Origin: a bacterium
Lineage (GTDB): Bacteria; Bacillota; Limnochordia; DTU080; RSA5
Length of the DNA: 36,433 bases
Direction: 5' to 3'
Assembly (NCBI GenBank): GCA_002919195.1
Contig: PKEU01000051.1
Location: forward strand, 1-36,433
Shown here: positions 2,920 through 20,456 of the stretch, one piece after another
Layout of the letters: every line of letters starts with the position of its first letter
Position numbering within the stretch: the stretch's first letter is position 1
The notes under the pieces: model-generated
What the model was told of the DNA's origin: nothing
The model's database searches: none
The model's input: only the letters and a program-made list of their open reading frames with translations
Translations under genes and position numbers: made by a program

Positions 2920-3447
2920 TTACGCACCCACTTGCTTGACGGTGGTCAGGGAGTCGATGGGCGCTTCCACCAGCTCCCGCGCCTTTTTCACCAGCTCCTC
3001 ACTGGGCGATTGGTAAAAGCAGAGGCACTTGCTCATATCCGTGCAGACGTACGTCCGTTCAAATTGCACCTCAGGGAGCTCGGCGTAACGGACCGACTTC
3101 TCTTTCTTGCGCTGGAGGTATTGCTCCATGGTCAGGTTGGCAGGAAGGTTCCACTCTACCAGGTAGTTGGCGGCGCCCGCTTTACCCTTCACCTCATCCA
3201 GCTCCGCCCCGACGAGACGCACCTCCTTGACCTGACTTGCGGTAAGCCCGGCTGCTTGCAGGGCCGCTCTCAACTGATCCGCTCCGTCCGCCTGCGCCAC
3301 GAGAAAGGCCCTGCCGGCCTCGATGCCGATCTGAGCTTCGACCAGCTCACCCCCTGCGCCCAAAGCGCTCGCGATCGTTTGCAGCGCCGCCTCGATTTCC
3401 GCTTCACTGCGCCCCTCGAGGGGCACCTCTGCGAGATAAAGTGACAT
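2920..3447 (-). CDS. DUF4242 (SCO4226 nickel-binding-like) domain protein, 175 aa
   Basis: C-terminal half NYLVEWNLPANLTMEQYLQRKKEKSVRYAELPEVQFERTYVCTDMSKCLCFYQSPSEELVKKARELVEAPIDSL resembles DUF4242. First gene of the minus-strand operon. Confidence 0.65.
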   Translation of the reverse strand: MSLYLAEVPLEGRSEAEIEAALQTIASALGAGGELVEAQIGIEAGRAFLVAQADGADQLRAALQAAGLTASQVKEVRLVGAELDEVKGKAGAANYLVEWNLPANLTMEQYLQRKKEKSVRYAELPEVQFERTYVCTDMSKCLCFYQSPSEELVKKARELVEAPIDSLTTVKQVGA

Positions 3448-3634: not shown

Positions 3635-3662
3635 TTGACAGCCTTAGCGCGGATGTGATAAG
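3635..3662 (+). promoter_or_regulatory. Promoter of the tandem-HTH tetR gene
   Basis: TTGACA (3635-3640), 16 bp, extended -10 TGTGATAAG with hexamer at 3657-3662. Confidence 0.55.
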
Positions 3663-3666
3663 AGCC

Positions 3667-3678
3667 TACTCAAGAGTA
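3667..3678. promoter_or_regulatory. Putative TetR operator 1: TACTC-AA-GAGTA
   Basis: Perfect 5-2-5 inverted repeat directly downstream of the -10. The same half-sites recur at 4539-4550. Confidence 0.6.
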
Positions 3679-3720
3679 TGTCTATCGCGCAAGCGAGCCA
3701 CTTCCGGGAGGGGACAGACA

Positions 3721-4500
3721 ATGGGCACCCGGAGGAAAATCGTCGAGGCGATACGCGCCTTGGCGCAAACAAAGGCGCCGGAGGAGCTGACGTTTGCCGA
3801 CGTCGCCCGTTTGGCGGGCGTCCACTGGACGACCGTCCGGAGGCACGTGGGAAGCCGGGAGGCTTTGAGGAAACTCGCCTCCGAGAGTCAGCCTCCCCGT
3901 GGAACGGAACACCTTGACACGCGGGCGCGGCTCCTTTTGGCCGCGGCTCGCCTTACGGAAAAGAAAGGTTTTCAGACGACGAGCCTCGACGAGGTGGCAG
4001 CGGAAGCTGGCTTGACCAAAGGCGCGATCTACTGGCACTTCGCCAGCAAGCACGATCTTCTCTTGGAGTTGATGCACCAGACGATCCGCCAAGAGATGCA
4101 AGGCCGGCCCAGCGAGGTCTCAGCGATCATGGCCGCAGACGACCCCGTTCAAGCGCTCGCGGCTTGGTTGGAAAAGGAGCTCCCCGATCAGGATTCGCCG
4201 GCGGCGATAGCGGCCTTGTTTGTCGAGTGCAGCGTCCACCCGGATTCCCAGGTGCGTGAGAAGCTACGGGAGATCGTGCGCGAGGTCATCCAGCAGACGA
4301 CAGAGCTCGTCCAAGCCTTGCAAGCCCGGGGCGATATCACCGGCCTCGATCCCCGGGTCGTCTCCGTCTACCTGCAAGCGGTGTTAAACGGGCTGATGCT
4401 CAACTGGCTGATCGATCCGGAGAGGATACGGCCGGCGCTTTGGTCTCGCCAGCTCGCTGAGCTTATCCTCTACGGCTTACAGCCGGGTGGGCGCAAGTAA
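3721..4500 (+). CDS. TetR/AcrR-family regulator with two tandem TetR_N-like HTH segments
   Basis: ATG 3721 preceded by GGGAGGGGACAGACA. First HTH LTFADVARLAGVHWTTVRRHVGSREALRKL, second HTH TSLDEVAAEAGLTKGAIYWHFASKHDLLLELM, then a helical C-terminal domain. The ORF-track start at 3508 is probably too early. Confidence 0.85.
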   Translation: MGTRRKIVEAIRALAQTKAPEELTFADVARLAGVHWTTVRRHVGSREALRKLASESQPPRGTEHLDTRARLLLAAARLTEKKGFQTTSLDEVAAEAGLTKGAIYWHFASKHDLLLELMHQTIRQEMQGRPSEVSAIMAADDPVQALAAWLEKELPDQDSPAAIAALFVECSVHPDSQVREKLREIVREVIQQTTELVQALQARGDITGLDPRVVSVYLQAVLNGLMLNWLIDPERIRPALWSRQLAELILYGLQPGGRK

Positions 4501-4536
4501 ATAACCCGGAAGGCGCGCTCTCTTTTTTGCCCACGA

Positions 4537-4552
4537 CATACTCTCGAGTATG
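4537..4552. promoter_or_regulatory. Putative TetR operator 2: CATACTC-TC-GAGTATG
   Basis: Perfect 7-2-7 inverted repeat upstream of the alpha/beta hydrolase. Core TACTC-N2-GAGTA is shared with 3667-3678. Confidence 0.65.
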
Positions 4553-4600
4553 CTAATCGCGTATCCACTGAGTCCATCCGTGTTCAAGGAGGTTTTTCCG

Positions 4601-5584
4601 ATGCGCATCGCACTCGGCGTCGCCGCATGGGTACTGATCGCCGCTGGCCTACTCACCCTCTATTCGCACTGGCGTGTCCGGCAGTGGGAGAATGCATCTA
4701 GGCCGGCCGGAAAGATGGTCCAAGTAGGCGACCTCTCCCTCCACTACATTGAGGAGGGCCAGGGCCAACCCGTGGTCTTTCTTCACGGAGGGATCTTGTC
4801 CAGTATCGACTTTGCCCAGGCGGTCGACATCGCCGCACGGCGGGGATATCGGGCCATCGCCTTTGACCGGCCGGGCTACGGCCACAGCCAGCGCCCCGCC
4901 GCGCCGGCGACGCCCATAGTACAGGCCCGCCTGCTGCGCCAGGCCCTTGAGGTCTTGGGAGCGGAGCGGCCGATCATCGTCGCTCATTCGTACAGCGGTT
5001 CGCTCGCGATGGCGTACGCTTTGGAGTATCCCCGGGAGCTAGCAGGCCTTGTGCTCGTCAGCGCGGCCGTCTACGGCGGCTCTATGTACCCTGCGGGCTA
5101 CGGCGATCCCCTCTCCCGGTTGGTTGCCGCCCCGATCGCCGGCGACCTTTTCCTCAACACTCTCTTCGTGCCTCTCGCGACGGTGGCCATCCCCAAAATG
5201 GTCGAGCAGACTTTCGCTCCCGATCCGGCGCCCCGGGAGTACGTTGAGAGAGCCCTGGCCTTGTGGGGCCGCCCGGGCCAGTTTAGAGCGAACCGGGAGG
5301 ACATTTTGTACTTCAGTCCCACGATGGACGCGCTAAAGGATCGCTTCCCCCAAATCGAGACTCCTATCGTCTTTATCTACGGCGAGCGCGACCCGTTCGG
5401 CGTCGACCAACACGCCCGAAAGCTCAGCCGCACCCTGTCGCAGGTGAAAACGATCGTCGTGCCGGGCGCAGGCCACATGTTGCCGGTCGTTCATCCCCAA
5501 GCGGTCGTCGACGCGATCGACGAACTCAAGAACGCCGACGCCAACCACGATGAAAGGTCCTGCACTTCTTGTAACGAATCATAG
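4601..5584 (+). CDS. Alpha/beta hydrolase with N-terminal transmembrane anchor
   Basis: AAGGAGG upstream of ATG 4601; MRIALGVAAWVLIAAGLLTLYSHWRV anchor; HGGILSS, nucleophile motif AHSYSGS, GERDPFGVD, GAGHMLPVVHP. Confidence 0.85.
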   Translation: MRIALGVAAWVLIAAGLLTLYSHWRVRQWENASRPAGKMVQVGDLSLHYIEEGQGQPVVFLHGGILSSIDFAQAVDIAARRGYRAIAFDRPGYGHSQRPAAPATPIVQARLLRQALEVLGAERPIIVAHSYSGSLAMAYALEYPRELAGLVLVSAAVYGGSMYPAGYGDPLSRLVAAPIAGDLFLNTLFVPLATVAIPKMVEQTFAPDPAPREYVERALALWGRPGQFRANREDILYFSPTMDALKDRFPQIETPIVFIYGERDPFGVDQHARKLSRTLSQVKTIVVPGAGHMLPVVHPQAVVDAIDELKNADANHDERSCTSCNES

Positions 5585-5643: not shown

Positions 5644-6921
5644 GTGTCAAAGCGCCTTGGCGTAGGCATCATCGGAACCGGGTTTATGACGCGTTTTCAC
5701 GTTCAAAGCTGGAGAGGCGTACGGGACGCCGACATCGTTGCGATCTACAGCCAAAACGCACAGCGGGCCAACGAGGTCGCGGCAATGTGCCGCGAGCTCC
5801 GGGTGGGCGATCCCAAGATCTACCACGACATCCGGAGCATGGTCCAGGACCCCGAGGTGGACGCGATCTGGGTCGTCGGCACCAACGACCGCCGGGTCGA
5901 GATGATCGAGACCATCTGCGAAGAGGTGGCTTCCGGCCGGGCGACGCTGCGGGGGATCGCCTGCGAAAAGCCCTTGGGACGCAACGTGGCCGAAGCCAAA
6001 CGCATCACCGAGTGCGTCGAGCAGGCGGGCCTCCTAAACGGCTATCTCGAAAACCAAGTCTTTTGCCCCGCCTTGGTCAAAGGGCGCGAGATCATCTGGC
6101 GCAGAGGGGCGGCCATCAGCGGGGCGCCGCACCTTGCCCGCTGCGCCGAAGAACATTCGGGCCCTCACCGCCCATGGTTTTGGCAAGGGGCGCTCCAGGG
6201 TGGCGGCGTGCTCAACGATATGATGTGCCACAGCGTGGAGGCAGGCCGGTTTCTCCTCTCCAACCCCGACGTGGGCTATGGCTGGCTCACGCCCAAAGCA
6301 GTGACGGCCCGCATCGCCTCGCTCAAATGGAGCCGGCCCCAATACGCCAAGCGCCTCCGGGAAGAGATGGGACCCGAGGTGGACTACCTCCAACATCCTG
6401 CGGAAGATTACGCGACGGCCGAGATCGTCTACGAGACCCAAGACGGCGACCTCGTGATCGCCCAGGCCAGCACCTCGTGGTCCTTTGTCGGCGCTGGCCT
6501 GCGGCTTACTTATGAAGTCCTCGGCCCCGAGTACTCGCTCTCCGTCAACACCCTCGACAGCGAGTCCAAGGTGTTTTTCAGCCGCCGCATCCAAGGTCCC
6601 GCCGGCGAAGACCTGGTGGAAAAGCAAAACGCCGAACAGGGCCTGATGCCCTTCTTGGCCGACGAAGCCGTCACCTACGGCTACACCGACGAAAACCGCC
6701 ACATGGTCCAGTCCTTTTTGGACGGCACTCCGCCGCGCGAGACGTTTCGCGACGGGCTGTTGGTCACCGAGTTGCTCATGGCCTGTTACCTCTCGGCCGA
6801 AGAAGGGTGCACACTGCAGTTTCCCGTCGCTGGGCTCGAATCGTACGTGCCCCAGGTGGCCCAGGGCACATGGTCGCCCACGTCGCTCGTCAAGGCGGCC
6901 AAGTCCAGCCCTCTTGCATAA
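5644..6921 (+). CDS. Gfo/Idh/MocA-family oxidoreductase
   Basis: AAGGAGGT then GTG 5644: MSKRLGVGIIGTGFMTRFHVQSWRGVRDADIVAIYSQ...; CEKPLGRNVAEAKRI. In-frame upstream start at 5602 is possible. Confidence 0.9.
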   Translation: MSKRLGVGIIGTGFMTRFHVQSWRGVRDADIVAIYSQNAQRANEVAAMCRELRVGDPKIYHDIRSMVQDPEVDAIWVVGTNDRRVEMIETICEEVASGRATLRGIACEKPLGRNVAEAKRITECVEQAGLLNGYLENQVFCPALVKGREIIWRRGAAISGAPHLARCAEEHSGPHRPWFWQGALQGGGVLNDMMCHSVEAGRFLLSNPDVGYGWLTPKAVTARIASLKWSRPQYAKRLREEMGPEVDYLQHPAEDYATAEIVYETQDGDLVIAQASTSWSFVGAGLRLTYEVLGPEYSLSVNTLDSESKVFFSRRIQGPAGEDLVEKQNAEQGLMPFLADEAVTYGYTDENRHMVQSFLDGTPPRETFRDGLLVTELLMACYLSAEEGCTLQFPVAGLESYVPQVAQGTWSPTSLVKAAKSSPLA

Positions 6922-19823: not shown

Positions 19824-20456
19824 TTACCCTGCTAACGTCTTGGCGCACACGGCGCGAAGGATCCTTTTCGCCTCTTGATACTCCTTAGACAAGGGAGAAC
19901 GCCGCGCGGCGATGCGTGCCGCCCGGGGGCGTAAACTTACCGCCCGGACGGCCCCCTCCAAGGCGCCAAAGAGCACCCGCGCCATCATCGTAGAATCCCA
20001 CCGGTCTCCCACGATCTCCCGCACCCGGGCCTCGATGTCGGCCTCAAACGCTTCACGCGCCTGGTCGATCTGAGTTTTCACATCGCGGGCGACGCCTTCA
20101 CACCCGCCGAGGAGCGCAAAGCGAGCGATCTCCTGGTACTCCATGATCACGTCGAAGGTGGTGTCGAGGACGATCAAGAGGCGCTCCAGCGGGTCGGTCA
20201 CTCCCTCCTGCCGCTCTTCGACCGTCTCTTGGATCAGGCGAACTCCCTCTTGAATCACCGAGACCAAGAGCTGGTCTTTTCCCGGGAAGTGGTAATAGAC
20301 GCTCCCCTTTGCGACGCCCGCCTCCTGGGCGATTTCATCGATCGAAGTCAGGTGAAACCCCTTCGTGGCGAAAAGGCGAGCCGCCGCGTCAAGGATGCGG
20401 GCCCGGGTCGTCCGGATGGCGTGAACCTTGGGCGTCGCCACCGTTTCCCCCTTCAC
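19824..20456 (-). CDS. TetR/AcrR-family transcriptional regulator
   Basis: TRARILDAAARLFATKGFHLTSIDEIAQEAGVAKGSVYYHFPGKDQLLVSVIQ. Confidence 0.92.
   Translation of the reverse strand: MKGETVATPKVHAIRTTRARILDAAARLFATKGFHLTSIDEIAQEAGVAKGSVYYHFPGKDQLLVSVIQEGVRLIQETVEERQEGVTDPLERLLIVLDTTFDVIMEYQEIARFALLGGCEGVARDVKTQIDQAREAFEADIEARVREIVGDRWDSTMMARVLFGALEGAVRAVSLRPRAARIAARRSPLSKEYQEAKRILRAVCAKTLAG

Follow-up and report, generated by a model that had tools for sequence, protein, structure and literature searches.

The locus described here lies in a window of 36,433 nucleotides (the whole stretch of DNA that was analysed) and comprises a gene for a predicted TetR-family repressor with two HTH domains, its promoter, two copies of a palindrome, and the genes for a membrane-anchored alpha/beta hydrolase and a Gfo/Idh protein. 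The features, in coordinates of the window, are as follows.

3635-3640, plus strand: -35 element TTGACA of the regulator promoter (from the sequence; the best promoter is TTGACA-N16-GATAAG)
3657-3662, plus strand: putative -10 element GATAAG of the regulator promoter (promoter scan; a weaker case in the window than in the relatives)
3665-3680, no strand: predicted operator 1, CCTACTCAAGAGTATG, where transcription of the regulator gene is expected to begin (palindrome, conservation)
3721-4500, plus strand: predicted two-HTH TetR-family repressor of 259 amino acids (open reading frame, profiles, AlphaFold2, fold comparison)
3727-3888, plus strand: HTH1, the extra N-terminal TetR_N domain, residues 3-56 (profile, AlphaFold2, PDB matches)
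3919-4071, plus strand: HTH2, the canonical TetR_N domain with LTKGAIYWHF, residues 67-117 approximately (Pfam, AlphaFold2)
4072-4479, plus strand: AcrR/NalD/MtrR-like ligand-binding and dimerisation domain, residues 118-253 (profiles, AlphaFold2)
4537-4552, no strand: predicted operator 2, CATACTCTCGAGTATG, upstream of the hydrolase gene (palindrome, conservation)
4601-5584, plus strand: alpha/beta hydrolase with a membrane anchor (hydrophobic helix at the N-terminus; motifs HGG, AHSYSG, GERDPF and GAGHM)
5644-6921: Gfo/Idh gene, starting 60 bp past the hydrolase gene

TetR regulators belong to the most widespread sensors of bacteria, and the usual picture shows a single DNA-binding head in each chain. 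One HTH per protomer is the usual TetR/AcrR layout, although the family is not strictly defined by it, and the regulator, which departs from that layout in having two TetR_N domains, is a TetR/AcrR-family member of variant layout. Pfam TetR_N (PF00440) finds two stretches within it (5.8e-21, the best stretch being residues 71-117), and its C-terminal part matches TetR_C_6 above the cut-off (8e-8). None of the named NCBI TetR equivalogs (MtrR, AcrR, ScbR-type and others) scored above its curated cut-off, the best being MtrR with 74.4 bits against a cut-off of 280. In the AlphaFold2 model (mean pLDDT 89, block values mostly 90-98), in which both HTHs have high confidence, HTH1 (block values 81-98) is built of helices 3-15, 25-32, 36-43 and 46-56, and after a short linker (residues 57-66) HTH2 follows with helices 67-82, 89-95 and 100-106, in front of an all-helical ligand-binding and dimerisation domain whose helices run to residue 253. 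The first-pass annotation had proposed two tandem TetR-type HTHs, the second of them canonical, and this is borne out by the Pfam matches (the canonical domain lying at about residues 67-117, where TetR_N is found), by the two separate HTH folds of the model, by the fold of HTH1 alone and by its PDB matches.

Taken by itself, HTH1 of the window protein matches TetR_N at 3.1e-4, below the gathering score, and the same segment (residues 1-62) matches TetR_N in 16 of 16 Bacilli-type homologs, the best at 1.9e-11. In isolation it was predicted to adopt the same fold as within the full regulator; all 50 of its best PDB fold matches belong to the TetR family (for most of them 1.1-2.3 Angstrom over some 47-57 columns), and the PDB chains matched by a profile built from HTH1 likewise all belong to the TetR family. 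Assignment to another HTH type, suggested by Pfam matches to transposase ISL3, IclR and LacI, was rejected because with the homologs TetR_N is the best match and the profile and best fold matches in the PDB are all TetR.

The closest structures are those of NalD, MtrR, TtgR and AcrR, with which HTH2 and the ligand domain align end to end and share the recognition segment GAIYWHF; NalD is the best PDB match both by sequence (1.5e-17) and by fold (Foldseek). These proteins carry one HTH per chain, whereas the window regulator has an extra TetR_N in front, and the window system differs from theirs also in its compact 16-bp palindrome and in its usual partner, a hydrolase and not a pump. Two TetR HTHs in one polypeptide are likewise present in Mce3R of Mycobacterium tuberculosis, a double TFR of a rare subfamily in which two whole TetR proteins are fused, with HTHs at 36-55 and 240-259 and a non-palindromic site (PMC11667970). 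In the window regulator, in contrast, only the HTH is doubled, the two copies stand side by side at the N-terminus, there is one ligand domain and the operator is palindromic; the single ligand domain and the succession of HTH1, short linker and HTH2 led us to reject a Mce3R-type double TFR. QacR brings more than two HTHs to one operator region through two dimers with one HTH per chain (PMC6018408), that is, it multiplies HTHs by a dimer of dimers, whereas the window regulator doubles them within the chain. The open-access text searched yielded papers on Mce3R-type double TFRs only and none on TetR HTHs in tandem at the N-terminus, which is weak evidence of absence.

Operator 1 (CCTACTC-N2-GAGTATG) and operator 2 (CATACTC-N2-GAGTATG) are copies of one 16-bp unit, CATACT-N4-AGTATG, to which operator 1 has one mismatch (CCTACT). 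The palindrome named in the first-pass annotation, TACTC-N2-GAGTA, is indeed exact at 3667-3678 and 4539-4550, and the unit is corrected to the 16-bp one. By shuffling, 0.16 sites for TACTC-N2-GAGTA are expected at up to one mismatch, and the whole 3.13-Mb genome holds three copies, the third of which lies inside a phage-capsid-like open reading frame on another contig. The window half-site resembles PmeR operator DNA, which contains CATACTTACATT (PMC4538802), and this partial likeness is all that a literature search for the operator sequence returned. The -10 element GATAAG ends two bases before operator 1. On the other side, a divergent gene (2920-3447, minus strand) encodes a protein with a SCO4226-like nickel-responsive domain; it probably falls outside the control of operator 1, since its promoter-like site on the minus strand (3551-3522) is more than 110 bp away.

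Homologs were sought from the protein sequence only, and full-length two-HTH relatives occur in Paenactinomyces, one Bacillaceae strain and many Moraxellaceae. When operators are counted at up to two mismatches to the 16-bp unit, the palindrome is found upstream of the regulator in 16 and downstream in 11 of 17 Bacilli-type loci, the window included (L119 and L121 are near-copies, and the picture stays the same), and upstream in 13 of 13 Moraxellaceae loci. The expectation that the motif would accompany proteins with two TetR_N domains has thus held up in both groups. Chance palindromes are ruled out by the counts in the Bacilli-type loci, 28 sites in the flanks (5.1 kb) against none in the 105.7 kb elsewhere, and by dinucleotide shuffles, which give about 0.1 loci with an operator. 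A -10-like hexamer starts exactly 11 bp before the palindrome at 13 of the 15 Bacilli-type operators that lie upstream, so that the operator would cover the transcription start, and most relatives have a TTGACA-like -35 and a -10 at a constant distance upstream of it; the downstream operators overlap less regular promoter-like sequence.

The exact pattern CATACY-N4-RGTATG occurs at 22 sites in 16 genomes, 12 of them at the regulator locus, and the 10 off-locus sites compare with 6 for a reversed control pattern. Off-locus sites being near background, a wider regulon was ruled out and the regulon appears to be local. It is very improbable that the palindrome is the site of a different regulator and stands close to the TetR gene by coincidence, given these near-background copies and the fact that the site tracks the regulator family across phyla and beside varied neighbours (hydrolase, RND pump and others). 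In seven loci (L016, L017, L019, L023, L027, L005 and L015, mostly of Moraxellaceae) tandem palindromes lie upstream of the regulator with centres 18-21 bp apart; they are not linked to the second HTH, because they are present also in the single-HTH relative L015.

The palindrome is kept in relatives that have HTH2 only (L011, L018, L020 and L022; it is weaker in L015), which indicates that HTH2 suffices to define it and that HTH1 is not needed for the operator core. This is what would be expected if HTH1 were vestigial or purely structural, with no DNA role, and the protein an ordinary TetR repressor with one HTH per protomer. This main rival explanation is consistent also with HTH1 of the Moraxellaceae, which is acidic and drifting (in the measurable pairs its dN/dS reaches about 0.5, whereas that of HTH2 is 0.03-0.09), and with comparison of the flanks across loci, which revealed no further half-site conserved next to the 16-bp operator. 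It is at odds with the Bacilli-type members, in which helices 2-3 of HTH1 exceed the ligand domain in conservation (0.77 vs 0.52), H35, W36, V39, R41 and G44 are invariant and the surface is basic (mean charge of residues 33-50 +2.5, against -1.6 in Moraxellaceae), and on balance we regard it as possible but doubtful. Among these members the dN/dS of HTH1 is 0.09 in one informative pair and 0.57 in the closest Bacilli pair; the latter value, which rests on few changes, speaks against a DNA role and the former for it.

Alternatively, HTH1 could read a second, different DNA sequence, with a four-HTH dimer placed on an extended operator or bridging the operators about 870 bp apart. If true, this would be a DNA-binding mode undescribed for TetR proteins in the open-access literature searched. 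The invariant H35-W36 pair, where the recognition helix begins, speaks for such reading, as does weak extra dyad symmetry around the upstream operators (p=0.003), to which the AT content, not corrected for, may contribute; AT-rich promoters may account for it. No extra motif is common to the downstream operators (p=0.93) or shared across loci, and the Moraxellaceae flanks gave p=0.22, so that the symmetry test was not convincing for an extended operator and we hold this reading to be unlikely. A longer and striking dyad, GATAAAAG-CATACTGATGAGTATG-CTTTTATC, with the operator in the middle, is present in L009 (Bacillaceae JMAK1) upstream of 5001 and speaks for such reading in that locus.

As the sequence flanking the 16 bp is not conserved, HTH1 could serve another purpose. 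The first-pass annotation had also suggested that the layout may change the stoichiometry of DNA binding, which the operator shared with HTH2-only relatives and the lack of an outer half-site leave as a conjecture. In the alignment to TetR_N, HTH1 residue r corresponds to HTH2 residue r+64. Arg, Gln or Lys stands in HTH1 in place of the conserved TetR tyrosine, and Trp36 falls at position Y-4, which is said to reach deepest into the major groove (PMC6018408). The missing tyrosine, and a Trp of such bulk at a place that usually has a short base-reading residue, speak against a DNA role. We infer that HTH1 is an accessory DNA contact in the Bacilli-type members, where it would most likely make non-specific or weakly specific contacts beside the palindrome, adding affinity and lengthening the footprint; in Moraxellaceae this role may have been largely lost.

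The downstream gene encodes a protein of the alpha/beta hydrolase superfamily, with an Abhydrolase_1/6 domain (6.9e-27 to PF00561), and the motifs AHSYSG, GERDPF and GAGHM of a Ser-Asp-His triad. C-C bond hydrolases, esterases and epoxide hydrolases are among its PDB relatives. The hydrolase start is most likely at 4601 and not at the ATG at 4550, which overlaps operator 2. An orthologous anchored hydrolase (40-56% identity) is next to the regulator in 12 of 16 relatives, and a thirteenth (L120) has a decayed remnant, with a methyltransferase-like gene intervening. The hydrolase reading frame of L121 is broken. Moraxellaceae loci have genes for an HlyD-type membrane-fusion protein and an AcrB-type protein (an RND pump) in place of the hydrolase; among the Bacilli members, an AcrB-like gene is present in one and an MMPL transporter in another. 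The conserved operators upstream and downstream of the regulator, together with the shared hydrolase partner, argue strongly for local repression of both genes, and support, as predictions, the autoregulation and hydrolase control proposed in the first reading. The control of the Gfo/Idh gene that it had added is unsupported by conservation: none of the related loci examined has a counterpart, and the gene was rejected as a part of the module. No terminator-like site was found between the hydrolase and Gfo/Idh genes, so read-through or co-transcription is possible.

Taking the comparative evidence as a whole, we think it probable that the regulator is a local repressor of the AcrR/TtgR/NalD/MtrR type that responds to a ligand, carries an accessory second head and represses itself and the hydrolase. 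A homodimer would grip CATACT-N4-AGTATG through its two canonical HTH2 domains, both at the start of its own promoter and at the promoter of the anchored hydrolase, and would repress both genes. NalD, MtrR, TtgR and AcrR respond to hydrophobic compounds, and by analogy a hydrophobic inducer, probably a toxic compound containing an ester or lactone, may bind the C-terminal domain and release the repressor, whereupon the hydrolase would destroy it. In Moraxellaceae the same switch would face an RND pump and the inducer would be expelled. Partner genes that are either hydrolases or pumps fit a chemical-stress switch. The locus offers a compact operator-repressor pair, in which the two-headed layout persists in distant lineages alongside a 16-bp operator that hardly varies, whereas the gene controlled switches between hydrolase and drug pump; the operator is a ready target sequence for asking what the second head does, and the locus points to an uncharacterised hydrolase that is likely to degrade whatever the repressor senses.

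A sampled search yielded 14 more two-HTH relatives in 400 genomes from the class to which the Paenactinomyces genome belongs, and in 399 genomes of the window's own phylum only the regulator described here. In a tree of 16 rows it groups with the Bacilli-type proteins (98/96 support) on a long branch, which makes horizontal acquisition plausible. Another two-HTH TetR protein (L129), with canonical residues in HTH1 (GVSRQSVYRYAG), adjoins a uracil-DNA-glycosylase-like gene and has neither an operator within two mismatches nor a hydrolase; it may represent a separate two-HTH lineage, possibly an independent doubling. Elsewhere in the window (19824-20456, minus strand) there is a second, ordinary single-HTH TetR regulator, which shows 50% identity over 60 residues to HTH2 of the two-HTH protein and lies near genes for a glyoxalase-family protein and a solute-binding protein.
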